Assembly (NCBI GenBank): GCA_015660855.1
Contig: JACSDG010000011.1
Location: 1-34,813, forward strand
Length of the DNA stretch: 34,813 nt
Direction of reading: 5' to 3'
Source of the DNA: Magnetococcales bacterium
GTDB taxonomy: Bacteria; Pseudomonadota; Magnetococcia; Magnetococcales; UBA8363
Program-made: the position numbers and the translations under genes
Notes under the pieces: generated by a model
Seen by the model: only the letters and a program-made list of their open reading frames with translations
Databases searched by the model: none
Told to the model about the DNA's origin: nothing
Shown here: in pieces, positions 15,101 to 34,680 of the stretch
How the letters are laid out: the number at the start of each line of letters is the position of its first letter
Numbering within the stretch: position 1 is the stretch's first letter

Positions 15101-15177
15101 TTGATGACACGGAAAGGCCGCTCACAAATATGGACAGCGAAACGTTTCTTTTCACGGTTCCGTCCGACCCGGTCTAG
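9103..15177 (+). CDS. Giant FecR/cadherin-repeat surface or secreted protein with calcium loops
   Basis: This 2024-residue protein has no classical signal peptide. Residues about 120-286 form a FecR-like/LapA-N-like region with LKVGDAVFKGDIL, ARAILDNY, RGIFSFESG and IKTPTAVIGIRG. Charged, then Pro/Ala-rich low-complexity linkers run to about 700 (PAPAPA near 645-660). Cadherin-like repeats of about 100 residues follow, each with TDPDxxQxLSWSLGG, ALFxxNSxTG, a DNGTG-type loop and TVTVTNVNEAP. Two copies of a PAPP-A-like beta domain are interleaved. The C-terminus holds several DxDxDG-type loops (LDLNHDG, DMNNDG, LDGDHDG, DQNRD, DANGDG), as in large type I-secreted calcium-binding adhesins. I infer a type I-exported adhesin. 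No secretion genes are adjacent. The ATG at 9103 has only a weak upstream ribosome site. The CRISPR array begins 18 bases after the stop. Confidence 0.85.
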   Translation: MSVSVHPKFAPLSEANHFDSLDGGVADFADFGLELVVPDVSLLLDGRYQSHGDDLVITGADGKTWTVDGYFSSVPPPVLLAPNGALLLPETVKSLLSVDQTAHATMVAGPSMIAEAASSIGKVDEAVGQVVAKGIGGEERILKVGDAVFKGDILQTLKGGLVTLVFVDGTRFKLAAEARAILDNYVYNPEIKQGGFEATITRGIFSFESGAISGLNTGRHSSIKTPTAVIGIRGSQLTGEVMADGSTSVVHTAGILDISDARGQGTVTLVEPGTATQVIFGAGAPEPVFKAPANFISRLEIQLDVQKAKEDRKSEDSGDSGNRQEQKPEGKKENGDDGQGQKENQGERDAAAETKSEAELKKEVEPVHDTEEILEAGAEALPEVGKDVAATQATKGTNADPEKRTSTETARAGGGSEVESVPVAASLGTIAEVGRGTGGEKVDDFSLADLIGTGRALEGAFVDVGSVGETLTFLAVPVTAKPEVVAKAELVPIPVSIPSPAQGRESPVAEKIQGKLQEEPQEKPQEKQESREEQGSISDAQLQPKSDAILSSPPEPIRETDTTLADFLGTPLFTATPELTVDSFANQPRTEVESHVSTVTPPALELSSPSTHSSGVSDSVATSGLTPSSPPNQTPPEEITPDPDLAPAPAPASVPAPAPAPSTENVSGLAPTTEATPPPSVSPSVDAGSTTNSPPPPTYTPVIIHRVNHAPSVTSGGSARVVENVTDAVYMASGTDPDEGQTLSWSLGGTDVALFNVNSSTGQVFFNSSPNFEISLDRGTDNVYDITVIVTDNGTGNLSASQAVTVTVTNMNEAPAITSRNRSGFAENGIGTVYTASGTDPDREQTLSWRLDGPDAALFGINSVTGDIFFNSPPDFELPLDHNASNTYKVAVTATDNGAGSLTASQAVTIVVTNVNESPSVTSGSSLVVAENSTGTVYTATGIDPDGEQILSWSLGGSDAALFQVNSLTGELFFNSSPNFEIPLDSRGKNVYDVTVTATDNGTGNLSASQGVTITVTDVNDPPAITSGSSSSFAENGTAMAYVATGIDPDREQVLTWSLGGVDAALFNINSVTAEVFFNSSPDFEIPRDAGANNVYDVTVIAIDNGTGNLSASQAVAVTVTDINEAPVVSYSIWDQYASGVLNFSSQYSSGSWSANQVIGSPNTFGYGDISTAWAPRLASGGMEYITVSFTTPVYSSGVTVRETYGNGFVTQVDALDMSNQLHQVWNGVDTSQPGQPVNFLATWSQTSYLVKGLKIHVDGTHSTTWEEIDAIQHHGSTEVGNLNFVENGTSTVYTAPGAGPAGGQISWSLGGVDAALFNINNLTGVISFNNLPDFEHPLDQGANNVYDITVTTTSGTGNPATNLDVIVTVTDVNEFPSITSGGSAQFAENGIAKVYTAAGTDPDVAQTLSWSLGGVDAAFFNMNSSTGEVFFNRPPNFELPLDRGANNVYDITVIATDSGLGNLTNSRAVAIAVTNVNEAPSVTYATLDQYASQVLSYSSQYSTNSWSANQVIGSPNTFHYGDISTSWATSSMNGGTEHITVLFATPVYASGATIRETYGNGFVTGVDVLDMSNQLHRVWNGTDGSQPGQPVDFLTTWSQTNYQVKGVKVYVNTNHNSYWEEIDSIKLMGSTSLSLQITQNITTAVTGILFADEDGGSGNAVATFTVGSGQLAAASFGGVTVGGSASQLTLTGTIANINDFVGGGHLTYTTSVNANDSLGISINDSGTVGSGNGLTSSMNVAIAVTCAFGDPLVLDLNHDGIHLLSMDDGTRFDMNNDGLRDVTGWIAPDDGLLVLDGDHDGVIEGIGELVSEYLVPDSSSSLVSLASFDQNRDSLVDSKDSVFPHLQIWQDANGDGISDFGELWRLEDLGIVSFGLQAGVPVMPEMQGNIITAVITFMQSDGQQGTMAEVGFHFADSPEAVNSPLIPAAMMGYLDLTPEEIFFEKQLVALLDSAAQTDPRGPDTQELFNHLHGFSGQESGWPAGFSDFVDHHNAFLSHFDDTERPLTNMDSETFLFTVPSDPV
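11221..13545 (+). repeat. Cadherin-like tandem repeats within the giant gene
   Basis: Four consecutive copies of about 310 bases span about 11221-12480, and two more lie at about 12950-13225 and 13230-13545. Each encodes a unit that begins after NEAPxxTSG and shares the SWSLGGxDAALF core. The fifth copy (12950-13225) is shorter and more diverged, with a PGAGPAGGQ replacement in its calcium-type motif. These repeats are recombination-prone and may vary in number between strains. Confidence 0.8.
12487..13995 (+). repeat. Duplicated PAPP-A-like beta domain
   Basis: Two domains of about 148 residues, encoded by about 12487-12936 and 13552-13995, are clearly paralogous. They share DQYAS, SSQYS, SWSANQVIGSPNTF, YGDIS, RETYGNGFVT, DMSNQLH, WSQT and WEEID. 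Each is preceded by a cadherin-like repeat, so a cadherin-plus-beta-domain block was probably duplicated as a unit. Similarity to the ASSQ-type beta domain found in PAPP-A-like proteins is my recognition of the SxQVxGxPNT and YGD pattern. Confidence 0.6.
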
Positions 15178-15194: not shown

Positions 15195-18100
15195 GGTCTA
15201 TCCCCGCAGGCGCGGGGGAACCTTCCATTTTAAGTTTGCTACGTACCTTCGATAGGGTCTATCCCCGCAGGCGCGGGGGAACCACCAGGGGAGACCGGGA
15301 TGCTTTGGAGGAAAAAGGTCTATCCCCGCAGGCGCGGGGGAACCTTCGGGCTGAAAATACCGTTTCAGCTTCGGGTAGGTCTATCCCCGCAGGCGCGGGG
15401 GAACCCGTGCGGCGGACTGACTGGAGGACAGGAAAGGAGGTCTATCCCCGCAGGCGCGGGGGAACCCAGGTCAGGGGAGCAAACTTTGTTCCTGGGACAG
15501 GTCTATCCCCGCAGGCGCGGGGGAACCGTGGCGCGGGATGACTTTGTTGGAGATGGCCCGGGTCTATCCCCGCAGGCGCGGGGGAACCCATATCACGGCG
15601 AGACCCCCGCAGAGGCTCTTGGGTCTATCCCCGCAGGCGCGGGGGAACCAAGTTTATGTGGATGTTGCGGTAATGCGATTCAGGTCTATCCCCGCAGGCG
15701 CGGGGGAACCTATATTGGTTCAGCTATGCCTGGGAGTAGTGAAGGTCTATCCCCGCAGGCGCGGGGGAACCCTCCAAGAAACCGATGCCCCCATCGAGAA
15801 GACAGGTCTATCCCCGCAGGCGCGGGGGAACCTTTTTTGCCATTATTCCCGCCAGGTCGATCGGAGGTCTATCCCCGCAGGCGCGGGGGAACCGAGAGAC
15901 AGCCTTAACTGGAACATGGCGATCAAGGTCTATCCCCGCAGGCGCGGGGGAACCTTCGATCAAGCGATCGAAGGTAACGTGACTGCGGGTCTATCCCCGC
16001 AGGCGCGGGGGAACCATCCAAGGAAAATCTTGGCTTTTGTGCAATAAAGGTCTATCCCCGCAGGCGCGGGGGAACCGCGATGGACGCCGCACAAGAGGTC
16101 GGCCACGGGGGTCTATCCCCGCAGGCGCGGGGGAACCGGCATTGAAAGGGCAATCCGGATTGACGGGATAGGTCTATCCCCGCAGGCGCGGGGGAACCCG
16201 ATGACGCCGACGGAGAAGGCCGGGATGTGAGGGTCTATCCCCGCAGGCGCGGGGGAACCAGGCTGAACTCTAACTTTGGTTTTTTATATGAAGGTCTATC
16301 CCCGCAGGCGCGGGGGAACCATCTGCAATGCCAGCATGGATGGGTGTCATAGGGGTCTATCCCCGCAGGCGCGGGGGAACCTCTTCCAGCGGGGAAGAGG
16401 TGTCGCGTTAAAAGGGTCTATCCCCGCAGGCGCGGGGGAACCCCAGAACCGGATCGTCAAGAATCTTTCTTAAGAGGTCTATCCCCGCAGGCGCGGGGGA
16501 ACCTTCCCTTGCGTGGTCTTCATCTCGATCCATAAAGGTCTATCCCCGCAGGCGCGGGGGAACCGCGGCGACCACTAGTGCTATGGCCTGGGCTATGGGT
16601 CTATCCCCGCAGGCGCGGGGGAACCCCCGTAGTGGACTGGCTCCCGCTAACACTCTGGGGTCTATCCCCGCAGGCGCGGGGGAACCCGTGAAAGGAAAAT
16701 AAAATGCCTAATTTTAACGGGTCTATCCCCGCAGGCGCGGGGGAACCTATCATCCCCAGGCAGATGACTAGCGGATGCCAGGTCTATCCCCGCAGGCGCG
16801 GGGGAACCTCGACTTGTTGCAGGGATAGGGGAAATCAAAATGGTCTATCCCCGCAGGCGCGGGGGAACCGTCTCCAACAATCCGGGCGAAGGTATTCAAA
16901 AAGGTCTATCCCCGCAGGCGCGGGGGAACCGGTTCACTCCTGTTTCTTCGTCCTGCCAAAAAAGGTCTATCCCCGCAGGCGCGGGGGAACCTTTCCGATG
17001 CCTCCGCAATGACCACAACCGACGGGTCTATCCCCGCAGGCGCGGGGGAACCTCAGCGCGATTGCCGCACGAAAATTTGAGTTGAGGTCTATCCCCGCAG
17101 GCGCGGGGGAACCTCTATCTGGGGTCCAAAAATGGCGCGACCGCCAGGTCTATCCCCGCAGGCGCGGGGGAACCTCACTTCTTTTTCCGGTACGCCCATG
17201 AACCCTGGGTCTATCCCCGCAGGCGCGGGGGAACCCGTACCGCTGGCAGACGACCCAGCCGCAATCAAGGTCTATCCCCGCAGGCGCGGGGGAACCCCCA
17301 CTTGGCCGCTGCCTTTTCTGCCAAAATCAGGTCTATCCCCGCAGGCGCGGGGGAACCCAACTAAAAGTATCATGACCGCCCTTGGGGCGGGGTCTATCCC
17401 CGCAGGCGCGGGGGAACCGATTCCCCTTCAAAAATCCCAAGACTTGATCCGGGTCTATCCCCGCAGGCGCGGGGGAACCATTTTGATTTCCCCTATCCCT
17501 GCAACAAGTCGAGGTCTATCCCCGCAGGCGCGGGGGAACCATAAACGGACAGTTCTTCAGTGCCACAATAACAGGTCTATCCCCGCAGGCGCGGGGGAAC
17601 CTGCCTAAAATGGCGGCACAACTGCGGAAGATGGGGTCTATCCCCGCAGGCGCGGGGGAACCTCTGATGCTATCGGTTACTATATTGTTAAAGAAGGTCT
17701 ATCCCCGCAGGCGCGGGGGAACCATCCTACGTGGACGGATTCTTTTAGGCTGTCGAGGTCTATCCCCGCAGGCGCGGGGGAACCGATACGTATCGAGCCA
17801 GGAGAGAAATCGACGAAGGTCTATCCCCGCAGGCGCGGGGGAACCTTCCCTTGCGTGGTCTTCATCTCGATCCATAAAGGTCTATCCCCGCAGGCGCGGG
17901 GGAACCTTCTGAAGGCGGGCAGCTCCCTGGCTACAGCCGGGTCTATCCCCGCAGGCGCGGGGGAACCCCCTGCCTCGAAATGATGGCTCCCTAGGTAATA
18001 GGTCTATCCCCGCAGGCGCGGGGGAACCCTATTCCTTTGCATCCATGATCGATACCAAGACGGTCTATCCCCGCAGGCGCGGGGGAACCGTAAACTTCTA

Positions 18101-18638
18101 GCATTACATCAGGTGCCACAGGGGTCTATCCCCGCAGGCGCGGGGGAACCGCTTGACGCTTGTCCAGGCAGGGGTTGCCTGGGGGTCTATCCCCGCAGGC
18201 GCGGGGGAACCGAGAGACCGCTTTAACTGGTACATGGCGATCAAGGTCTATCCCCGCAGGCGCGGGGGAACCCCCCCTTGCGTGGTCTTCATCTCAATCC
18301 ACAGAGGTCTATCCCCGCAGGCGCGGGGGAACCATTAGGCGAATCCCCTGCGCCTGGTTGAGAACCGGTCTATCCCCGCAGGCGCGGGGGAACCCCCACC
18401 TTGCCGGCATAAAAAAGGCCACGGTTGGGTCTATCCCCGCAGGCGCGGGGGAACCTTTGACGACTGGTTTTGACGCGCCAAATATTGAGGTCTATCCCCG
18501 CAGGCGCGGGGGAACCTCGCACCTTTTTCGGCAATCAACTGCCAATAAGGGTCTATCCCCGCAGGCGCGGGGGAACCGTTTGCCAACTAAGAAGGAGTTA
18601 CCACTCCTAGGGTCTATCCCCGCAGGCGCGGGGGAACC
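15195..18638 (-). CRISPR. Type I-E CRISPR array, 57 repeats and 56 spacers
   Basis: The repeat is 28 bases, beginning GGTCTATCCCCGCAG and ending GCGCGGGGGAACC on the plus strand. It recurs with an exact 61-base period from 15195 to 18611, giving 57 copies and 56 spacers of 33 bases. I saw no repeat variants, even at the ends. The reverse complement (GGTTCCCCCGCGCC ... GGGGATAGACC) matches the E. coli I-E repeat orientation. The array is therefore read on the minus strand, from a leader at the right, downstream of cas2. The base preceding each repeat on the plus strand is A or G at 53 of 56 spacers, so the functional repeat may be 29 bases with a PAM-derived last base. The same or related spacers recur at 16504, 17846 and 18273, and at 15894 and 18212. 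Confidence 0.98.
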
Positions 18639-18730
18639 TCTCTCTCTCATATACATGAAACACATTAAATTTTCAAAGATTAATACTCAGAGCAACCCGA
18701 ATTTATCGGGTGAACTGGTAATCCTAGGGG
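18639..18730 (-). promoter_or_regulatory. CRISPR leader
   Basis: This 92-base AT-rich stretch lies between the cas2 stop and the newest repeat, where a type I-E leader should be. It contains ACCCGA/ATTTA/TCGGGT (18695-18711), a six-base-pair hairpin next to the cas2 end. I found no perfect E. coli-type IHF site, so integration here may use other cues. Confidence 0.7.
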
Positions 18731-19063
18731 TTAGCTGGGGGTTGCTTTTTTCAATTTTTCCATTTCGGGTTGCGTCAATGGACGTTTGGAAAGGATTACC
18801 CCACCAACATCCACCAATTCCACCGGGGTTGAGCCAAGAGTACGCACTTGCAGACCAGCGACGGCTTTTGGGTCACGCCAGACCATCACCACCGATCCCC
18901 CACCCAATTGACCAAACCACACTTCCAAAACCTTCCAAATTCGCTCGCGGACAGCGACGTTGATACGAGGTCCTACATAAACCCCAGGGGCAATTTCCAG
19001 CATACAGGAGGCTAGAAACCCGCGAAACCTCGGTGCTACCTCACGGGTGGTGACTACAGTCAT
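18731..19063 (-). CDS. cas2: Cas2e, CRISPR adaptation nuclease-fold subunit
   Basis: This 110-residue I-E-type Cas2 begins MTVVTTREVAPRFRGFLA, the usual Cas2e opening, with CMLEIAPGVYVGP and RERIWKVLE following. It forms the central dimer of the Cas1-Cas2 integrase that inserts spacers at the leader end. Its ATG overlaps the cas1 stop codon by four bases (ATGA), giving translational coupling. It is the last gene of the cas operon, directly before the leader. Confidence 0.95.
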   Translation of the reverse strand: MTVVTTREVAPRFRGFLASCMLEIAPGVYVGPRINVAVRERIWKVLEVWFGQLGGGSVVMVWRDPKAVAGLQVRTLGSTPVELVDVGGVILSKRPLTQPEMEKLKKATPS

Positions 19064-19951
19064 TGGCTGGTACCGCCCCCACTCCCCTGAGGCTCCTCCG
19101 GTAAAAATAATTGTTTGATGCGATCAATCATGGACGGAATAACACCCTCCTGTCGGAACGTTTGTCCGCACAACCTCCGAACGTGACGCTCTAAATCAAT
19201 GTGAGGTTGCCGCTGATGGTTTCTTACTCCCTGGAACGCCGACGGCAAGGTGATCTGATCGCGGTAAAGGTCGGCTATATCAAGGCAAAAAGCATTGGCC
19301 GAATCCTCGTGAATAAAACCCAGTGACGGAATCGCCCCTGTAGCAGCAACAGCTATGGTGGCGGCGGCCTCTACCGCCGTTGCGGCGTGGTTGATGGCCT
19401 GGTTGGGCAAGTCGGTGGCATCCGGGTTTTGCCGGTCATAGTTTCGTCCGTGCCAGTCAATACCAAAACGTTGCGCTAACAGCTTGTACGTTTCTTTCAT
19501 GCGCGCCCCCTCCATACCCCGGAGAATGGCAATGTCTCGCTTGATGGGTAAAATCTCTCCCAGTCGCCAAGCATACATGCGACGGGCAATACGAATCCGC
19601 TCTGCCGAACTTTCCGCCCATACCCGGGCGTGTTGCCGACTCAGTGCCGAATCTCCCGGCCCCAACGGGGGGGCCGTATATAACCTGACACCATCCTCAC
19701 CCACCGCAGCTAAACCCGTACCGTGACGCGCCAACAAACGCAGGGCATCGTGACTGATCGTACAACCCGGACCCAACAGCAACAGTGAAATCCCTTGATA
19801 GGGAATTTGATGATCCCCTGCCGTCATGTCCATCGTGCCGGCCGTGAGAAAGTGCAAAGTTCCCGCCTCTACGACAAGATTACCCCGTCCAAGCCAAAGC
19901 AGCCCATGACGATCCGCATGAGGAATGCGCGCGGTTTCGAGTCCGAGACGA

Positions 19952-19962
<11 letters not shown>
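19060..19962 (-). CDS. cas1: Cas1, CRISPR integrase
   Basis: This 300-residue type I-E Cas1 is the endonuclease/integrase of spacer acquisition. The metal-binding residues are present with the E. coli spacing: E151 in RGMEGARMK, H218 in GFIHEDSANAF, and D228/D231 in LDIADLYRD. An N-terminal beta domain covers about 80 residues and the rest is helical. The start overlaps the 3' end of cas6e by 11 bases and the stop overlaps cas2. The Gly/Ser-rich tail (GSGGGTS) is unremarkable. Nothing suggests loss of function. Confidence 0.97.
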
Positions 19963-22666
<2,704 letters not shown>

Positions 22667-22693
22667 GGTCGTGGCTCCAATCGTATTTAAGGG

Positions 22694-23227
22694 TCATTGC
22701 GGTTTGTGGGAGAAATAATCACGGGCCATTGCACGGCGGTGGTGGTCGGCCCGGTGGTGATTTCGCGCCAGGATGAAAGGTGCAAACCGGCTCCAATCCA
22801 CGGTCGCTCCTTTGGCCCGCAGATATCGGCAGGTACGCGCCACGGCCTCAAAAAACGCCAGATCATGGCTGTCAATCAATTTTAAAAAACGGTTTTCCGA
22901 ATAGCCTTGAGCCGCCAACACCCGTCCCGGGGCCGACTCAAGTCCCCTCTGATGCGGGTGCGGTGCCATCTGGGCCATGCCACTCAAAACGGCAAACCAG
23001 CGTTCCTCATCTTCCTGTCCCAATCGGGCTTCGCTGTCGATGATTCCCACCAACAGTCTCCAGGCACTGGCGGGGACAGTCTCTCCATGGCGCCAACGCC
23101 TCAATTCCGCCATGTCCCCAGACGATAACCCCCCTTCGTGGGCATCGCGTGACATAAGTTTGGCCAGGGTGAAAATCGTTTGTTCCAGCGAAACAGGTTC
23201 TGTTTCGTTGGTTGCCTTCGCACTCAT
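22694..23227 (-). CDS. cse2: Cse2 (Cas11e), Cascade small subunit
   Basis: This 177-residue helical protein of the Cse2/CasB family is present as a dimer along the Cascade belly and stabilises the R-loop. It has ELRRWRHGETVPASAWRLL near residues 41-59 and AQGYSENRFLKLIDSHDL near 105-122, the typical conserved blocks. A strong AAGGAG lies 5' of the ATG. It follows the cas8e stop by 21 bases and leads cas7e by 27. Confidence 0.93.
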   Translation of the reverse strand: MSAKATNETEPVSLEQTIFTLAKLMSRDAHEGGLSSGDMAELRRWRHGETVPASAWRLLVGIIDSEARLGQEDEERWFAVLSGMAQMAPHPHQRGLESAPGRVLAAQGYSENRFLKLIDSHDLAFFEAVARTCRYLRAKGATVDWSRFAPFILARNHHRADHHRRAMARDYFSHKPQ

Positions 23228-23248
23228 ATGAGCGTCTCCTTGTCACTG

Positions 23249-24773
23249 TTATTCCCGGATAAAATGGTCGGAAAACTGGTTGTACAGTGCTCCACGGAAT
23301 ACCCGTTCGGCGGTTACTGCAATTTTGTGGCGGCGTGCACCACCGGCAATCAGGCCTCCTTCGGCCGCCGCCAAAAGTTCCTTCCCAAAACCTGCCAAAA
23401 GGTGAATCCAGTTGGTGGCGGCCTGTTGGGGATCCTGTTGCAGACTTTCCCAAAGGGATGGAAAAAACACGGCATCCACCTTTTGGTCAAAACGGCGATG
23501 CCACGTATCGACGCGCCTGTCTTTGAAATTCAATTTTTCCGGGGATCGTTGGATCATCGTCAGAAGGGCTGGGATGAGAACTTTTTTTGCCATTCTTCCG
23601 CTCTGTTCCACCCTTTCTCGGGCTATGGCCGCCAGGGAGGCGCGTCCCTGGGCTTGATTCAGTGTTGCGCGAACCACCGGTGAAAGGGGGAGGCGTCGTT
23701 CATGGTATCCCTCGGTAATTCCCTGTCCTCGGGCCAGAGCGCGGGCAAAAAACTCGCTGTGGTTTGTTGCGGGGTCAAAACCGCTCTCCTGGGCCGGAGA
23801 GGAACGATATTTCTCCGACCCCAACAACAATTCGCTGATGAGTTGGTAGCCAAAACCTTTGCCGGTGATCGTCAGGGAAACCGTTTCTGCACCGAGGCGC
23901 AGGGGGGTCCAGAGATCGCCCAAAAATCCTTTGAGACCTTTGGAGTGAATTCGGGTCGTCTTGGAGGGGGCGGCATGCGCCACAGGTCCGGTTATCCCTG
24001 TAGAAAGACGGATACGGCGACAAACCTCAATAAAATAGGGGTCCAGGGTTTCCAGTGACAATTCGGTTTGCCCATCCCATGGTGTCAGCCATAACAGTGC
24101 CAACCCATTATTTTCTCGATACAGGGTGGGATAATCCCGCAGCAACTTTTCCCTGCTCCAAAGTAAAAGATCCAGATCGCGCGTAAAATGCGGACCGGGA
24201 AGGGGGCCGGGCACCAACCGCCGGGCGACTTGCAGATCCACCATTCATCCGCGCAATGCCGTAATAGCCCCCAAGATAGCCTTCCATGGTTTGTAACGTA
24301 ATCAGGGCCATGATCCAATGATCGGGATGCGGGTGGCCGATCCGGGCCATCTTGATGTCATGGTTTTTGGCTGTTACCAAAACGTCGAGACCGTCAGGAG
24401 TAAGGATGGAATTCTTAAATCCATTGAGAGTCTTCTCCGGTATTCCCGGCTGCATGAATGCGGGTTGTGCCAGGTCCGCCACCACCAACTGCCACGGTTC
24501 ATCGTTGGGCCATTCGCTGGTGAGGGCGCGGAGCAAGGGGAGCCACGAATATTCGTCATGAGGTGGTTTTTCCATGCCAGCGCGGTGCATGGCCATGGCT
24601 GCCAACTGGACCAGAAAAGAGTGCCAGGCGTGGCGTTGGTGGGGTTGCAGGGCTGGGAAGGAAACAAGGGTATGGTTTGCCAACCCTGCCATCACTCCGG
24701 GTAGGGAGAGTGCCATCCTTTGTCCCGCCGCAGTTTGTACCCGAATCAACGGGTCGATCATCACATTGTTCAT
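23249..24773 (-). pseudogene. cas8e: Cas8e (Cse1), Cascade large subunit, split by a +1 frameshift
   Basis: Two overlapping frames together make one Cse1. The first (24773 down to 24108) opens MNNVMIDPLIRVQ and has FPALQPHQRHAWHSFLVQLA, LDVLVTAKNHDIK and YGIARMNGGSASRPAVG, then goes out of frame. The second (from about 24205 down to 23249) continues PGPHFTRDLDLLLW, then WLTPWDGQTELSLETLDPYF. Dropping one base of the GCCCGGCCCCC run (24201-24215) rejoins them as VGAGPLPGPHF, giving 507 residues, a normal Cse1 length. Cas8e recognises the PAM and recruits Cas3. Its ATG overlaps the cas3 stop by four bases. The shift could be a true mutation, a homopolymer sequencing error, or programmed frameshifting. 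An ATG at 24244 in the second frame lacks a ribosome site. Confidence 0.9.
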
Positions 24774-27451
24774 GCTTTGCCTCCAGAATCAGTCAATGGA
24801 CTTGGGCGTAGTCCCAGTCGGTCGTAATGAAAACGGTGGGTGTCCATGGTGAATGAGAATCCCCAGATTTCCTCAACGACATTCTTCGGACTTACGTCGG
24901 CAGGAAAATTTGCCAGTAACCAGCGACCGGGGATGGTCAGCGCGGAAATTTGTTTTTGAAACGGTCCCATGGGGCTGGGGTCGGGAAAGCGGACCAGGCG
25001 ATCATCCATGCCCAGTCGGGTTGTCAACCTGCGGTCAGCGTGACCGTAGAAATCGCAATTGTGCAACCATCGGTCCCGGTCATACAGAGAAGAACGCGCC
25101 TGTTGTATCTGGGAGGTGCGGGTACCCCAGAGGGTGTCGGCGTGTTTTTTCCAGCGTTCCCCCAGACGGGTGGCGAGGGCTTCCAGGTTTTCGGGGTGAG
25201 TGGCCGCCTCCACCAGGCGACGATTATCTTTGGGAAGCGAAATACATGGCAGGGTGTGCAGGGTTTCCGCCGTCGCTTGCAATACTCTGAGATCCGGGTA
25301 AACACTCCCCCATCCGTGCTGCATGAACCCTCTGCTACACTCTCCTTTTTCGGTCAAACCGGCTTCCAGACCACCCTCCGGTTCCAACAGAACCACCCGT
25401 GGCGTGGCAAAGGCGGCGGGCCGGTCGGTGCGCTCATGGCGGTGCAGACGTCCGATCCGTTGCAACAGAACATCCATGGGACATAGATCGCTGATAAGAT
25501 AATCGACATCAATATCAAGGCTTTGCTCCACAGTTTGTGTGGACACGACCACTTGGCCCGTGCGGGAAAGCGTCCCCTTGCCCAGGACCAACGCTATGGC
25601 TTGATCCAATGATCGGCGATCCTCAGCGGCAAAACGGGCATGATGTGCGGCTGAGACCCCTTGGCAACGCCAAAGAAGTTGGGAATCCTTTCCCGCCTCC
25701 TCTTCGAGTGCCAATTGTGTGTTCACCGCCCAGCTAACCGTGTTGCGTATGACCAATACCCGCGCCCCCGTCTCTGCCGCCTTCAGGGCCAGTGCCGCGA
25801 CATCACTGGCCAAATCGGCCCAAGGCAAAAATTCGATGGTGACCCGTTTACCTGGTCCCTGCGGGGCGATGGCCGTTTCGGTTATCGCCTCCGTACCATG
25901 ACGACGGGTCAGCAGGGGATAGGGGTGTTGACTCGATTCCCGGGATGCGGGCGGAAATGGGCGCGAATGATCACTGAGAAACATGGAACGGGCCACGCTA
26001 CCGAGAGTCGCCGACATGAGCAGGGCATACCCTCCGACTTGCCGCAGACGTTGCAGCACTTCCCGAAGGATGGTGGTCATGAAGGGGTCGGAGGCGTGAA
26101 CTTCATCCACCACCAGCAGCAGGCGACTCAAGGCGGCGGCACGCATGTGGGCATGCGAGGTACTCAGAGCCGATAACAAGACCTGATCGATGGTCCCTAC
26201 GGCAATGGGAGCGGCCAGATAACGCTTGGGATGCTCCGCTGCCCATCCTCGGTATTGCAACGGACTGGTTTCGTCGTTCCACAGGGTTGTAAATGGGGCC
26301 AGAGGAATTCCTTCCTCCTGATCGACCCGAAGGTAGCCGGGAACCGCCAGGATTACGGCAGGATGATCGGGTCCGAAGGCTTGGCGCATGGCTTCCAGAG
26401 TCCGTCCATGGATCTGTACGGCGGCGGCTCGTGTGGGAAGCGCGAAATAGAGACCATCCACATGTCCGTGTTCAAACAATTTTAAAAAATGCCATAATGC
26501 GGCTTCTGTTTTCCCTGAGCCTGTTTCTGCCTCAAGGATAACGACCTGTTCGATATGTGGATCGGGTAATTGCGCTACGGCATGTTGCATGGCGTTGGGT
26601 GCGGCAAGGCCAAACACGCGGGCAAAATCGGTGGCGCGCGTGCGCAAATCCTGTCGGGCCTGGTGCGGATCCAATCCCAGTTTTTGCACGGCAGTCCGTG
26701 CCTTTTGGGTCAGTATTTCCAGGGAGGGGAGGTTTGCATCGCTGGAAAAAGGAAAAAATCGCTTTGCATCGGATGCGATCCAGTCCGCCAGGGTCACCAG
26801 TCCGTTGAACAGGTGTTGTGCCGCCGGGGTGATGGGTAAGGGGTCACACTCTGCGGTAAAGGCCCCTGCAAAGATGCGACGAATGGCGTGGACAAGTTCT
26901 GACAATCCTTGGACGGGATCGCGCTCTGGTCCCGCATCCCACACCCGCTTGGAAATTTTGTGCAACTCCCCTGGTCGGCCCGGGGAATTGGGATCCCCTG
27001 GCAAAGGGCGGCCATGGTGGCAGAAAACTGTCCACAACCAGCCGATAAGAGGGTCCGGGGAATCCTGTATTGCAGTGCCGGTGGCTTCGGTAAACCATGA
27101 AGTTATTTCAGCCAAGGCCAAAGCGGAAAAACCCTCTTCCGACCGTGGTGAATCGAAGAGCAACTTGAAAATCTCCCGGACGTGGCCATGTGTTTGCCAC
27201 TGACGGGACTCGCGACCATCCTGGAAACCATGGTTGCACTTGCCGACATCGTGCAACGCCGCAAGGACGGCGAGTCGCTGCCGTTGGTGCGGGGAAAGAT
27301 CCGGCAAACCCAGGGCCTGAGACAATCGACGACGAAAAATGTCCAGATTGAGAAGTTCGAGGGTGACGATAGCCACTTCCAAAACATGGTGGCTCAATGG
27401 ATGCGTCTCTGAATGGTCGGGCAAATCCTGCCGTTTTCCCCAATAGCTCAC
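24770..27451 (-). CDS. cas3: Cas3, HD nuclease-helicase
   Basis: This 893-residue single-chain Cas3 nicks and degrades targets marked by Cascade. The N-terminal HD domain has the LSHH segment near residue 19 and ALHDVGKCNHGFQ near 65. The superfamily 2 helicase has Walker A EAETGSGKTEAA near 310, motif II VVDEVHASD near 448, motif III MSATL near 475 and motif VI QRIGRLHRH near 664. A C-terminal domain ends in the cas8e overlap. The start is a GTG at 27451 preceded by GAGAGGGGGAAAA. As first gene of the operon it follows a long AT-rich upstream region that should hold the cas promoter. The whole cas set and array lie downstream on the same strand. Confidence 0.97.
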   Translation of the reverse strand: MSYWGKRQDLPDHSETHPLSHHVLEVAIVTLELLNLDIFRRRLSQALGLPDLSPHQRQRLAVLAALHDVGKCNHGFQDGRESRQWQTHGHVREIFKLLFDSPRSEEGFSALALAEITSWFTEATGTAIQDSPDPLIGWLWTVFCHHGRPLPGDPNSPGRPGELHKISKRVWDAGPERDPVQGLSELVHAIRRIFAGAFTAECDPLPITPAAQHLFNGLVTLADWIASDAKRFFPFSSDANLPSLEILTQKARTAVQKLGLDPHQARQDLRTRATDFARVFGLAAPNAMQHAVAQLPDPHIEQVVILEAETGSGKTEAALWHFLKLFEHGHVDGLYFALPTRAAAVQIHGRTLEAMRQAFGPDHPAVILAVPGYLRVDQEEGIPLAPFTTLWNDETSPLQYRGWAAEHPKRYLAAPIAVGTIDQVLLSALSTSHAHMRAAALSRLLLVVDEVHASDPFMTTILREVLQRLRQVGGYALLMSATLGSVARSMFLSDHSRPFPPASRESSQHPYPLLTRRHGTEAITETAIAPQGPGKRVTIEFLPWADLASDVAALALKAAETGARVLVIRNTVSWAVNTQLALEEEAGKDSQLLWRCQGVSAAHHARFAAEDRRSLDQAIALVLGKGTLSRTGQVVVSTQTVEQSLDIDVDYLISDLCPMDVLLQRIGRLHRHERTDRPAAFATPRVVLLEPEGGLEAGLTEKGECSRGFMQHGWGSVYPDLRVLQATAETLHTLPCISLPKDNRRLVEAATHPENLEALATRLGERWKKHADTLWGTRTSQIQQARSSLYDRDRWLHNCDFYGHADRRLTTRLGMDDRLVRFPDPSPMGPFQKQISALTIPGRWLLANFPADVSPKNVVEEIWGFSFTMDTHRFHYDRLGLRPSPLTDSGGKA

Positions 27452-27837: not shown

Positions 27838-28281
27838 TCATTTTTTCGCCGGAACTGCTGGAGCCGCAGCGGGTGCTGCCGCAGCGGGTGCTGCCGCCGC
27901 CGGAGCTGCCGCCGCCGGAGCTGCCACCGCCGGAGCTGCCGCCGCCGGAGCTGCCGCCGCCGGAGCTGCCGCCGTGGCAGGGGCTTTGGCCGCAGGTGCA
28001 CCAGCCGCAGCAGGTGCTCCGGTCACCGGTGCGCCACCCATAGGAGGAGCATTGTCCGGTATGGCGTCTTGCCCGCCATATTGGTCCACAGTCCCCGCCA
28101 ATTCGGCCATGCACTTGCTGATGTACCCTTCCATTTTGTCTGCCGCAATGCCATCTTCTTGCGCCCACTTTTGGCAGGTGCGCTTGTCAATCTCTTGATC
28201 TTCCGGCGGTGCTGCGGCAATCGCCAATGAAGTCATGAAAAAACTCGATATGATCATCAGTCCCATTTTCTTGTGCAACAT
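27838..28281 (-). CDS. Small exported protein with Ala/Pro-rich tail, function unknown
   Basis: This 147-residue protein has a signal peptide (MLHKKMGLMIISSFFMTSLAIAAA). A short folded core of about 50 residues follows, with two cysteines in CQKWAQEDGIAADKMEGYISKC, which could form a disulfide. The C-terminal 70 residues are almost purely Ala and Pro, built from APAAA units, with a final PAKK. The start is the ATG at 28281, preceded by ACAGGAGATTG. An open stretch further upstream is not needed. The tail could span the periplasm or cell wall as a flexible linker. I do not recognise a family. It is divergent from the response regulator gene at 28513. Confidence 0.75.
   Translation of the reverse strand: MLHKKMGLMIISSFFMTSLAIAAAPPEDQEIDKRTCQKWAQEDGIAADKMEGYISKCMAELAGTVDQYGGQDAIPDNAPPMGGAPVTGAPAAAGAPAAKAPATAAAPAAAAPAAAAPAVAAPAAAAPAAAAPAAAAPAAAPAVPAKK
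27891..27980. repeat. 15-base tandem repeat encoding the Ala/Pro tail
   Basis: The unit CTGCCGCCGCCGGAG is repeated five times in a row, one copy with a G-to-A change, followed by a degenerate sixth unit. On the minus strand each unit encodes APAAA in effect. Such in-frame repeats can change copy number by slippage without breaking the gene. Confidence 0.8.
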
Positions 28282-28339
28282 GCTACAATCTCCTGTCAGT
28301 GCCATGATGGCGTGTTTCCATCCCAATGAGTTTAATGTC

Positions 28340-30342: not shown

Positions 30343-30521
30343 GCTGACATTGTGCGCCAACGAACCGAGCCATTGCAATCGTCGGAGTCATCCAGGAATG
30401 TTTGCCGAATCAGCATCAGTTCGATGCCGTCAAGGTGGTTATTGGAGTGGGAAGGGAGGAGATAGAGGCGTGTCAGCGATTCGTTGACCAGTTCGAGTCA
30501 GGCTTCACAACCACATCTTAA
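30343..30521 (+). pseudogene. Fragment of a coding region of unknown function
   Basis: One plus-strand frame is open from the IS66 end to a stop at 30519-30521. It reads NRAIAIVGVIQECLPNQHQF, then DAVKVVIGVGREE and QRFVDQFESGF. It has no start and looks like the tail of a gene cut by the insertion. The stop overlaps the convergent xre gene. It could be chance; I do not recognise the family. Confidence 0.3.
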
Positions 30522-30832
30522 CCAACATCCAGTTCCATATTTCTCAACAGTTTCATCCTCTCCTTCACTTTCATCTTGCCGATTCGTTTGATAATTTCTG
30601 CCATCACATCGTCATCACAAAAGAAGTATGCGGGTGGCACGCCCAAAACGTCACCAAGCCTCTTGATCAGTCCATAGTCTGGTGGGACATGATGCCCAAG
30701 TTCGTACCTGTTCATCCGGGGACTGGACTGTTGTGGTCGCAGGCCCACCATCATCCCCAACTTGCGTTGGGAAACGTCCGCTGCCAACCGCGCCTCCTTA
30801 AGGCGTCTCGCGAAGGGTGAAAGCTGCTCCAT
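30518..30832 (-). CDS. XRE-family helix-turn-helix regulator
   Basis: This 104-residue small DNA-binding protein has an HTH_3-type domain over residues 1-70: RRLKEARLAADVSQRKLG, then a recognition region with SSPRMNRYELG, and KRLGDVLGVPPAYFF, as in Cro/CI-type repressors. A basic and charged C-terminal helix (IKRIGKMKVKERMKLLRNME) follows. The ATG at 30832 is preferred to an adjoining TTG at 30835. Its upstream region carries a palindrome at 30901-30917 next to a TATAGAT-type -10 on the minus strand, so autoregulation is likely. The gene stands between two transposase remnants and may have come with mobile DNA. Confidence 0.82.
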   Translation of the reverse strand: MEQLSPFARRLKEARLAADVSQRKLGMMVGLRPQQSSPRMNRYELGHHVPPDYGLIKRLGDVLGVPPAYFFCDDDVMAEIIKRIGKMKVKERMKLLRNMELDVG

Positions 30833-30900
30833 CAATTCCGTTCCGTGCCATGTTTTAGATCCAGACCGGCGATGGTAGCATCTCTAAACTTTATCTATAC

Positions 30901-30917
30901 TCTGCGTAAAACGCAGA
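30901..30917. promoter_or_regulatory. Candidate XRE operator 1
   Basis: TCTGCGT/AAA/ACGCAGA is a perfect inverted repeat 68 bases upstream of the xre start. The adjacent atctata (30893-30899) reads TATAGAT on the minus strand, a plausible -10 box for xre. The palindrome would overlap the -35/spacer region. Confidence 0.5.
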
Positions 30918-30992: not shown

Positions 30993-31009
30993 TCTGCGTT
31001 TTTCGCAGA
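30993..31009. promoter_or_regulatory. Candidate XRE operator 2
   Basis: TCTGCG/TTTTT/CGCAGA repeats the same half-sites as operator 1, 92 bases further away. Two matched sites suggest cooperative binding or looping by the adjacent regulator. Confidence 0.45.
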
Positions 31010-31074
31010 TATTACCGAATTCTTGGGTGTGGGTTGTTTGACAACAGGAAGAACCAGAAGTCGCCTGGAATGGG

Positions 31075-31227
31075 GAGGGCAAAACGCACGATAGTACTTC
31101 TAATCTGCGACCCTTTCACCTCGCGCTTGCGCCAGATGAAATGTTTCGCAGTTGGGTTGTAGGCTGCAATAAACGCCTCGATGGCAGTTCGCAGTTCCTT
31201 AGTGTTCTTGAACGATGCGCTGCGCAA
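31075..31227 (-). pseudogene. IS630-family transposase C-terminal fragment
   Basis: The minus-strand frame reads FKNTKELRTAIEAFIAAYNP, then KHFIWRKREVKGSQIRSTIV, the typical end of an IS630-type DDE transposase (an AIEAFI helix followed by FxWRKREVKGS). Only about 50 residues remain. No ends or catalytic residues are left, so it is a scrap of an old insertion. The frame runs on to 31012 without transposase similarity. Confidence 0.65.
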
Positions 31228-31335: not shown

Positions 31336-31782
31336 ATGAAAGAGATTCGCAGTACCAACACAATCCTACCCGGTATTTCAATAATGGTTCTGGTCGCCTT
31401 GCTGACTGCCACGGCGAAACCAGCTAAATCCGAGGTTGTATTTACCGTCTCGTCCGTCCTCGCTATCGCTGGAGCATCGTCAGCATTGGGTTTTTTGAGC
31501 GGACGCGCCCTCACTCCAGTTCCCATGCCCGCTCAAGCCCCACCACCAGGAACACTGGCCTACGGTTCCGCAGTGGATTACCAAGGCTATCTTCTTGCGC
31601 AGCAAATGGGGTCAGGGAGCGGTGGTGCTGTCATCTATCGCGGCAGCGAACAACCTTTGACCAACTACCAGATAGTTCCATACGGCACACCAGCGGTCAC
31701 CGGTCCGGTACTAGGTATGGTTGTGCAGGAAGGAGTGCCCGAAACGCAAAATTATCAAGGTGGTTATACACTCTATCGCTAG
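31336..31782 (+). CDS. Small exported protein of unknown function, first gene of the MrtJ-type operon
   Basis: This 148-residue protein has an N-terminal signal or anchor (about residues 10-32, ending near AKPAKS) and a second hydrophobic Ala/Gly-rich segment (FTVSSVLAIAGASSALGFL). The rest is Pro, Gly and Tyr-rich with no cysteines, for example PVPMPAQAPPPGTLAYGS, and ends GGYTLYR. Its stop lies 40 bases before the large JDVT-CTERM-like protein gene, in the same direction, so the two are probably co-transcribed. I do not recognise a family. It could be a surface or periplasmic partner of the large protein. Confidence 0.65.
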   Translation: MKEIRSTNTILPGISIMVLVALLTATAKPAKSEVVFTVSSVLAIAGASSALGFLSGRALTPVPMPAQAPPPGTLAYGSAVDYQGYLLAQQMGSGSGGAVIYRGSEQPLTNYQIVPYGTPAVTGPVLGMVVQEGVPETQNYQGGYTLYR

Positions 31783-31822
31783 GAATAACATGTCAGATCA
31801 ATCTCCAACCAGGAGAACAGAA

Positions 31823-34240
31823 ATGTCGGATGGTTTTTGTAAACTTTTAAAACTCACCCTGCTCCTTCACGCCATGCTTGTTTTTGCCTGGGGACAGGCA
31901 TATGCCGCAACAGCAGTCATTAAACCTTCTGTAACCACAGTAGTAAGTGGCAGCGATATTGTTGTCAGATTGGACGGTAGTGGTTCCGTGACAACACCTG
32001 CTACGGAACTATTAGAATACCGGTGGAGATTTCTTGGCACCAGTATGGATGTAACGGCCCATCCTTTGTATTTTGAGATTGAAAGCAAGGAATCCTTAGG
32101 CGGCGCACCTGTGGGAAAGGTTCCTGTACTCTCCTTTGCGGCTAGTGCGAGTCTTGTGATTGACTGGGGAGACAGCACTTTTTCTTTCAAGGTGCCTGCA
32201 ACGGGTATAACGGAAAGTATTGTCCTTTACGTTGGCCTGGAAGTCTATGATGCAGCAACGGGAATCACATCAACCATGGCGGTCCAGAATATCAATATAC
32301 TCCCTGCCAATTTTCTAGAAACAGACCCGAGCAAGCTGAGTTTTACCGATATAAACTCACGCACAATACGAGTAATGGAACGTGACCCAGTGATTCTGAA
32401 TGCCCTTTCACTGATCAGTCTTTTAGGTATACCAACTGATGGTTTGACCGATTTTCGCTGGGAATACATCAAAACTATAAATTTTGATGGAAAAGAAGGA
32501 CAAACCCTGAACCTCCTAAGCAGCGAATCTATAACTGGAGGCGTTAACGGAAGTGCAGCACAGTTAAGTCCGGGTTCGATGACCGAGTTCGGCGATCAAT
32601 ATCTCTCTTTTACCGCCCCTACACTTTCCCCCAATGAAGGAATGGTCCTGATCTTTGGCCTGACGGCACGAAACGGCATTAACTACAGCTTAACTAAACA
32701 GCTAATCTCTATAGTCGTACAGTCCCAAATCAGTACCACCTATGGCAATCTCCCTACCAATACAGCTACTCCCATTCCCAATACCCCAGTATCCACCCCT
32801 ACCACAGGTACCTATACAGTAACAGCCGGTCAGGGAATTACTTTGGATGGTTCTGGTGCCAGAGACTCCAAAGGCACTAATCTTTTATCCTATCAGTGGC
32901 AATATGTGGCAGCAGTAAACGTCGATTCAAGTTCCGACAATACAGTCATGGTTTCAAGTTCGGAAATTAGTCTGAGCGGTAAGAACATAACAAAAATGGG
33001 CCCCAGTAACACTCCCCTGAAGGCAGTGGTCTCCCCACCCCCTTTTGAAACAATAACAGAGTGGGGCGACCAATATATCTCCTTCTATGCTCCAACGCTT
33101 CTCCAGAGCAATAAAAGCTTGATCATGGTTTTCGGGCTTTCCGTAAAAGATGCCTACGGTCAGGTGTCTACCCAGGCTCCGGTAATTGTCAATGTAATAA
33201 GCAGCACTACGGATAGTGCCATAAAAACACCTATTGCCGCAATCGATGTCATTAACGGCAAGACCACCTTCAACCCCTGGGATACAATCAATCTTGATGG
33301 TTCCCGGTCCAGTGCGCCAGCTGGTGTTGCTCCCGGTACAGAAACTCTCAAATATTCATGGAGCGTATCGCCGACAGATTTATTCGCACTTTCCAATGCA
33401 ACTGATCCAAAGCCCACAGTGTTCGTTCCACCGCTAGCAACTGGAACGACGCTTACTGTCTATCTTACAGTTATCGACAGTATCGGAACACCATCCATGA
33501 CAGTTATGAAACAGTTGATCGTCAATCCATCTTCCACACCACTCTCTGGCAATTGCCTGGGAGGCGGATATCAATATGTAATCCCGTTGATGGATGCCGC
33601 AAAATCTCCCCTCGCCATAAAGATTAGCGGCGGTTCTCTGTTAAATGTCAATGTCTATCACCAGTCACAAACAAATGTTTCCAATATAAAAACTGCCTTG
33701 AGCACTCAGGGCAAACCAGACTCACTCCCCTACGGTCTGCTTGACTTTGAGATCAAAATGGGTCAGGCACAAAATATGGCTCTGGTCGATTTGTGCTTCT
33801 CCTCCGCCGTGTCGGCAGGGAGTACCTGGTGGAAATATTTCAATGGTCAGTGGATCGATATGCCTGGTTATGATAATGGCCGCTACTTCAAATTTAACCC
33901 AACTCGCACCGGAGCAACACTAATACTTATCGATGGTGGTTTTGGTGATAGCAACAGTTCCACTCCTGGAATCATCAAAGATCCGGGTGGATTGGGTCCA
34001 TCTCCAACTTCTCCGCCGTCACCGTCACCGTCACCGCCGGCCACCGCTGCCGCCACCGCCACCGCCGCCGCCGCCACCGCCGCCGCCACCGCACTGCCGC
34101 CACCGGGTCCAAATGATGGGTCAAGTGGTGACACCAAGGTGGGCTGCACCATGAATCCCAATGCCAGATTTGATCCGACGTTTGCGCTGATGCTGGCCTT
34201 TTCCCTGATCCATCTGTCTCGGCGCAGAAATCGGGCATGA
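31823..34240 (+). CDS. Surface protein with PKD-like repeats, choice-of-anchor U-type domain and JDVT-CTERM-like tail
   Basis: This 805-residue protein has a signal peptide (MSDGFCKLLKLTLLLHAMLV ... AYA). Three PKD-like modules follow, each marked by LDGSGS/LDGSGA/LDGSRS and a YxW strand. Next is a domain typical of choice-of-anchor U proteins (PYGLLDFEIKMG, WWKYFNGQW, LIDGGFGDSN, GIIKDPGGLG). After a Pro/Ser/Ala/Thr low-complexity spacer comes the sorting tail: GCTMNPNARFDPT, a hydrophobic helix (FALMLAFSLIHL) and the basic end SRRRNRA. This is the JDVT-CTERM form, which MrtJ-type intramembrane proteases are thought to process. That protease follows directly with a four-base overlap. I start at the ATG at 31823, with AGGAG seven bases upstream; an in-frame ATG at 31790 is possible. 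Confidence 0.85.
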   Translation: MSDGFCKLLKLTLLLHAMLVFAWGQAYAATAVIKPSVTTVVSGSDIVVRLDGSGSVTTPATELLEYRWRFLGTSMDVTAHPLYFEIESKESLGGAPVGKVPVLSFAASASLVIDWGDSTFSFKVPATGITESIVLYVGLEVYDAATGITSTMAVQNINILPANFLETDPSKLSFTDINSRTIRVMERDPVILNALSLISLLGIPTDGLTDFRWEYIKTINFDGKEGQTLNLLSSESITGGVNGSAAQLSPGSMTEFGDQYLSFTAPTLSPNEGMVLIFGLTARNGINYSLTKQLISIVVQSQISTTYGNLPTNTATPIPNTPVSTPTTGTYTVTAGQGITLDGSGARDSKGTNLLSYQWQYVAAVNVDSSSDNTVMVSSSEISLSGKNITKMGPSNTPLKAVVSPPPFETITEWGDQYISFYAPTLLQSNKSLIMVFGLSVKDAYGQVSTQAPVIVNVISSTTDSAIKTPIAAIDVINGKTTFNPWDTINLDGSRSSAPAGVAPGTETLKYSWSVSPTDLFALSNATDPKPTVFVPPLATGTTLTVYLTVIDSIGTPSMTVMKQLIVNPSSTPLSGNCLGGGYQYVIPLMDAAKSPLAIKISGGSLLNVNVYHQSQTNVSNIKTALSTQGKPDSLPYGLLDFEIKMGQAQNMALVDLCFSSAVSAGSTWWKYFNGQWIDMPGYDNGRYFKFNPTRTGATLILIDGGFGDSNSSTPGIIKDPGGLGPSPTSPPSPSPSPPATAAATATAAAATAAATALPPPGPNDGSSGDTKVGCTMNPNARFDPTFALMLAFSLIHLSRRRNRA

Positions 34241-34680
34241 TGCGTCGGGCCGACACCCAGAACAAGGGACACCGCAACCTTGCGGTTGCGGTGTCCCCGT
34301 GGATACTCCTGATTTTTGCCGTCAGTTTTGGTCTTTTTTCAGATGGATTACCTGAGGCAATACGCCTGTTTTTGGGTTATGCCGTAGTCTATCCGGTTTT
34401 GGAGGAGTTGACTTTTCGCGGCTGGTGTCAAACCCTGCTTCTAAAAAAGCCGCTTTTCGCCATCCGCCGTTTAGGCATTTCCCCAGCAAATCTTTTTACT
34501 TCCATTCTGTTTGCACTGGCTCATTGGCTCGTGCGGGAACAGAGTATTATTCTTCTGGTATTTTTCCCTTCACTCCTGTTAGGATGGGTACGAGAAAAAG
34601 CCGGGTCGGTGGGTTATGGCATTCTTCTCCATGGTTTGATGAATATTTTTTATTTTAATGTTTCCATGGCCGGTTTCTAG
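34237..34680 (+). CDS. mrtJ: CPBP-family glutamic-type intramembrane protease, MrtJ-like
   Basis: This 147-residue membrane protein of the CPBP (CAAX protease/bacteriocin-processing) family carries all three active-site motifs: EE56-57 with R61 in VLEELTFRGW, FxxxH at F92-H96 (FALAHW) and HxxxN at H132-N136 (LLHGLMN). About four to five hydrophobic segments are present. Its short length and position, overlapping the stop codon of a protein with a JDVT-CTERM-like tail (ATGA), identify it as the likely sorting protease MrtJ dedicated to that neighbour. The start may be the ATG at 34237 or the next ATG at 34240. Processing would occur in the inner membrane; the fate of the cleaved protein (surface release or lipid attachment) is not shown here. 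Confidence 0.82.
   Translation: MMRRADTQNKGHRNLAVAVSPWILLIFAVSFGLFSDGLPEAIRLFLGYAVVYPVLEELTFRGWCQTLLLKKPLFAIRRLGISPANLFTSILFALAHWLVREQSIILLVFFPSLLLGWVREKAGSVGYGILLHGLMNIFYFNVSMAGF

Follow-up and report, generated by a model that had tools for sequence, protein, structure and literature searches.

A one-substrate MrtJ/JDVT-CTERM sorting pair accompanied by an apparently order-specific small exported gene in the Magnetococcales

C-terminal sorting systems of the MrtJ type are usually described as an enzyme together with its targets, and in the published account MrtJ and JDVT-CTERM form just two genes, a neighbourhood already described there (PMC11980579, mBio 2025, citing Haft 2024). A 34,813-nucleotide stretch of DNA from a Magnetococcales bacterium (the window) raises the question of whether such a pair can have a dedicated third member: the original prediction, made from the letters of this DNA, placed a small exported gene, with no described part in such systems, upstream of a JDVT-CTERM-like protein and an MrtJ-like protease. 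The pair itself is known; what is new is this undescribed gene, which stands beside every pair in the order. A consistent third gene would supply a defined partner to test in a system pared down to one protease and one substrate, small enough to reconstruct in E. coli; it would also give a way into the question of how surface proteins with a lipid anchor are escorted through the outer membrane.

A check of open reading frames (ORFs) and translations confirmed the coordinates first proposed, with three genes on one strand between 31336 and 34680, the window ending 133 bp past mrtJ:

31336..31782, + strand: small exported protein gene (148 aa; signal peptide, AKS-E site, Gly-rich hydrophobic segment, low-complexity body, C-terminal YTLYR)
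31823..34240, + strand: JDVT-CTERM surface protein gene (805 aa; signal peptide, PKD/Ig-like regions, choice-of-anchor U, Pro/Ala-rich linker, sorting tail)
34237..34680, + strand: MrtJ intramembrane glutamic protease gene (147 aa; NF033192, Rce1-like PF02517)

The JDVT ORF is also open from 31790; the start at 31823 is the most likely one on sequence grounds, since it has the better ribosome site (AGGAG) and leads directly into the signal peptide. The mrtJ ATG and the JDVT stop codon share four nucleotides (ATGA), an overlap that had been anticipated, and the gap between the small gene and the JDVT gene is 24-53 nt at all four loci that carry the set; the three genes are likely co-transcribed.

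Elsewhere in the window, a second large probable surface protein (9103-15177, + strand; 2024 aa, containing cadherin repeats and a FecR-like part that scores below cut-off) lacks a JDVT tail, and 27838-28326 (- strand) encodes a small protein that looks exported and has a long tail of Ala/Pro-rich repeats. Type I-E CRISPR-Cas genes (Cas2, Cas1, Cas6e, Cas5e, Cas7e, Cas11e, Cas8e and Cas3) occupy 18734-27451 (- strand), with Cas8e apparently split over two frames (24108-24773 and 23249-24244) by a frameshift or assembly error; the adjoining long repeat array at ~15200-18700, whose forward frames read SIPAGAGEP/VYPRRRGGT/GLSPQARGN, is a CRISPR array.

The identities assigned to the pair were upheld by three models scoring above the curated NCBIfam cut-offs (choice_anch_U 32, JDVT-CTERM 27 and MrtJ 75 bits). 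The JDVT protein matches NF033191 (JDVT-CTERM) at 37.4 bits over residues 785-815 of 816, its extreme C-terminus (42 bits for the tail when the genome was scanned), and NF041766 (choice_anch_U) at 55.5 bits; the protease matches NF033192 (MrtJ) at 80.1 bits, a margin of just 5 bits. The features of the JDVT gene are as follows:

33722..33997, + strand: choice-of-anchor U domain (NF041766)
34142..34234, + strand: JDVT-CTERM sorting tail, GCTMNPNARFDPT-TM-SRRRNR (NF033191)
34145..34147, + strand: codon of the invariant Cys, a putative lipidation site (invariant in the order's four tails)

The tail reads VGC-TMNPNAR-FDPT, followed by a hydrophobic helix and SRRRNRA, and the protein (VGCTMNPNARFDPTFALMLAFSLIHLSRRRNRA) has an N-terminal signal peptide, the invariant Cys, the helix and the Arg-rich end. 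This Cys had been described as lying just before FDPT, which is loose, the F being eight residues on; its suggested role as the modification site is indirectly supported, because it is invariant among the four tails and, in one carrier (G019), is the sole Cys in the 2381 residues of the JDVT protein. The MrtJ translation retains the motifs of CPBP glutamic proteases, namely E56, E57 and R61 (EExxxR), H96, and H132 with N136 (HxxxN); its structure, predicted from the single sequence, was of low confidence.

A scan of the window's genome recovered a single JDVT-CTERM tail and a single Rce1-like protease. The proposed one-substrate system thus holds for this genome but not for MrtJ generally, as a genome of family f18 may encode as many as five JDVT proteins and a single MrtJ above cut-off, whose gene often adjoins ispH rather than a target. 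In three f18 loci (L104, L105, L108), the single MrtJ gene lies near ispH with the JDVT proteins elsewhere, a one-enzyme, many-substrate form. That the window encodes a sorting pair is backed by the profile scores, the single copies in the genome and the adjacency of the two genes in the order's carriers.

Does the small gene belong with the pair? Among 61 genomes, 48 of them from the order, MrtJ exceeded its cut-off in the window's genome (G000), G033, G039 and G019, as well as in G048 outside the order; within the order, JDVT-CTERM was found in the same four (4/48). All three curated models exceeded their cut-offs in G033 and G019, as did MrtJ in G039. In G033 and G019, a small exported ORF directly precedes the JDVT gene, and pairwise BLASTP of these two proteins and the window's copy gave 2e-10, 5e-7 and 2e-13 for the three pairs. 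When a profile of the three proteins was run over the 48 genomes, it picked out, blind, a single further strong match on G039 contig 3 (E 3e-17), again directly before the JDVT gene of what is the fourth carrier. The case that could have told against the original prediction was checked, and the association stood: relatives of the small gene accompany the other three pairs and occur in none of the 44 pairless genomes of the order (hypergeometric p ~5e-6, a guide only, the genomes being related). A weak profile match in G020 (E 0.06), antisense to a response-regulator ORF, was taken as chance.

The known cassettes number only four, all in one order. In a tree of MrtJ built to ask whether these four have a single origin, the branches are long. 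Two carriers (G033 and G039) are of one genus, whose other sampled members are without the set. G027 lacks the small gene, the JDVT gene and mrtJ despite 97% identity to G033 in the adjoining bio/pyrF segments, which argues that the set is gained or lost as a unit. All four carriers encode the type II secretin GspD above its cut-off (508 bits vs 351 in the window's genome), and a GspG gene is present in the window. An insertion sequence seems to have split the JDVT gene of G039: on two contigs (L063, ~9560 to end; L025, ~6555-6676), the gene stops at inverted ends that match one another (GGAGCCGTTAAAAAATTACATGGACTTCTT) and have TTA beside them in both cases. Some 11 nt beyond mrtJ in that genome, and in the same orientation, begins a flagellin gene that carries a large insert (L025, 4069-6134, - strand); its contig also carries GspE- and GspF-like genes.

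The features of the small gene are as follows:

31336..31431, + strand: predicted signal peptide, aa 1-32, ending AKS-E (hydropathy; AKS-[DE] invariant in four relatives; cleavage inferred)
31435..31506, + strand: second hydrophobic, Gly-rich segment, aa 34-57, [VL]FT...(A/G)G.....G...G (hydropathy and four-protein comparison)
31765..31779, + strand: C-terminal motif YTLYR ([YFL]x[LVIF]YR-COOH in 4/4)

In all four small proteins (103-148 aa), the signal peptide ends in AKS and is followed by [DE]xxFT; next come a hydrophobic stretch containing three Gly residues at intervals, a variable body and a terminal Tyr-Arg. Should the signal peptide be cleaved, the second segment could either cross the membrane or be exported; its Kyte-Doolittle hydropathy, which peaks at 1.4-1.9, is compatible with both. 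A pair of Cys residues about eleven residues apart is present in three of the four; the window's copy has no Cys, and therefore thiol chemistry cannot be essential. The protein matches no Pfam, NCBIfam or PHROGs family above cut-off, and prediction from its single sequence gave no confident fold (mean pLDDT 44.6). A phage origin was considered and set aside, PHROGs giving no match. Leave-one-out profiles of the four relatives scored 31-64 bits, whereas none of the 1000 shuffles of each exceeded 12 bits; with the mature part only, each member still exceeded its 1000 shuffles, by only ~6 bits for the window's copy. Because these scores exceed the shuffles, a chance ORF can be discarded, and by this statistical measure the small gene is a genuine coding gene.

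Upstream of the set lie a divergent regulator and a pair of palindromes:

30518..30835, - strand: divergent XRE helix-turn-helix regulator (HTH_31/HTH_3; same position in G033 and G039)
30902..30916, no strand assigned: palindrome CTGCGTAAAACGCAG, putative operator 1, ~-80 of the regulator start (pattern count)
30994..31008, no strand assigned: palindrome CTGCGTTTTTCGCAG, putative operator 2 (pattern count)

The regulators of G033 and G039 are 46% and 45% identical to the window's copy. Palindromes of the form CT[ATG]CG-N5-CG[ATC]AG occur exactly twice at each of these three loci, ~80 and 170-200 bp before the regulator start, with no further copies (0.38 expected in the window, 0.1-0.4 across the three loci); the G019 locus has neither regulator nor palindromes. 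In the window's genome, the small gene begins ~330 bp beyond the palindromes, and the interval includes what may be the remnant of an insertion sequence; a 71-aa ORF located there (31012-31227, - strand) resembles, by eye, the end of an IS630-type transposase and has no Pfam match. In G038 and G013, the same regulator and two palindromes are found, with no cassette, in divergent orientation to flgF (L094, 3331-3829; L096, 3658-4204). An exclusive tie of the regulator to the cassette was ruled out by its close relatives in G038, G027 and G013, which lack the cassette. As it occurs before flgF without the cassette and is absent from G019, the regulator is, judging by these comparisons, a recurrent module and not a defining part.

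Outside the order, a phylum-wide sample of 398 genomes, which included the four carriers, contained JDVT tails in 30. Profile searches detected the small protein in none of the 26 JDVT-bearing genomes outside the order, an empty result that carries little weight for want of a positive control there, although this profile did recover the family within the order; weak matches in G109 and G090 (E ~0.01 among the 398 genomes) were taken as chance. In one genome (G122), a protein with both choice-of-anchor U and JDVT-CTERM adjoins MrtJ with no match to the small gene, so the gene is not simply tied to the choice-of-anchor U domain. A plasmid search found no small protein, and two plasmid-borne mrtJ pairs (Paraburkholderia and Sulfurovum) are without the gene; GTDB contigs scanned with MrtJ yielded three distant proteases and nothing else. 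Within these samples, the small gene is order-specific.

The small protein had been suggested to be either a partner or a second surface component. Anchoring by the same protease as a second component is highly improbable: the protein is exported and co-directional with the pair, but it has no sorting tail, C-terminal helix or Arg cluster, and the window's copy is Cys-free. A part in the sorting step itself, as a Cys-acylation factor or required MrtJ cofactor, is also very unlikely. Strict co-occurrence with MrtJ in the order would suit such a part, as would the still open identity of the acylating enzyme (PMC11980579); however, an alignment of the four proteins holds no conserved catalytic-type residues, MrtX is active in E. 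coli without an added partner (PMC11980579), and the protein went undetected in the 26 JDVT genomes elsewhere, though MrtJ exceeds its cut-off in 10 of the 13 that were checked.

More serious, if still unlikely, is that the small gene is a passenger, sharing a mobile cassette and promoter with the pair and acting independently of the sorted protein. Its sporadic distribution and its absence from JDVT-bearing genomes outside the order are consistent with this, as is the lower GC content of the JDVT and MrtJ genes (0.48 and 0.475) relative to the small gene and the window (both 0.54). Yet the gene holds the same position in four cassettes that span three families at ~30% identity, so that it has stayed linked and intact for long, and none of the 44 relatives has a free-standing copy.

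We favour, at a probability of roughly two in three, a sorting pair with one substrate, joined by an exported accessory protein specific to the order; the three would make up a surface-protein cassette that is self-contained and sporadic in its distribution. The gene families, their order, their co-occurrence and the palindromes are read from the sequence itself, and a surface location of the JDVT protein is likely. The published experiments that were found concern the related MrtX rather than MrtJ: MrtX cleaves a Cys-dependent tail, both in M. xanthus and when placed in E. coli, and the same work proposes, but does not prove, that an Lgt-like enzyme acylates the protein beforehand and that type II secretion transports it (PMC11980579). 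In the cassette, Sec would export the JDVT protein and the C-terminal helix would keep it in the inner membrane; its tail Cys would probably be acylated by a housekeeping enzyme, and MrtJ would cleave the tail. The co-transcribed accessory protein, with its Gly-rich segment in or against the membrane and a flexible tail ending in Tyr-Arg, would aid folding, export or display of the one surface protein, not cleavage; we prefer a display or export partner to a sorting factor because MrtJ pairs elsewhere lack the gene and MrtX needs no partner. Control of the cassette may lie, at three of the four loci, with a divergently encoded XRE repressor that acts on the two palindromes. Tentatively, and at somewhat less than even odds, the small protein may be a dedicated, lineage-specific third component that docks on or escorts the sorted adhesin, possibly via Tyr-Arg, and is required for its display.

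A functional, speculative parallel is offered by M. xanthus, where the sorted surface protein TraA has a cohort protein, TraB, as its partner; the small protein here (103-148 aa), in contrast, matches no family in the libraries searched. The MYXO-CTERM/MrtX system to which TraA belongs resembles the cassette in its Cys-helix-Arg tail, its CPBP glutamic intramembrane protease and the presence of type II secretion genes, but has dozens of substrates as opposed to one, and the window's protease reaches only 48.6 bits against the MrtX model (cut-off 180), whereas tail and protease fit the JDVT and MrtJ models. Closest is the MrtJ/JDVT-CTERM two-gene system: protease and tail belong to the same families above cut-off, and the genes adjoin, here with one substrate. 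The window's order appears to lie outside the beta and gamma groups named for that system, since the kinship list skips from order to phylum with no same-class entries, suggesting that the order is alone in its class. To that two-gene system the window adds a conserved exported gene upstream and, at three of the four loci, an XRE regulator with paired palindromes.
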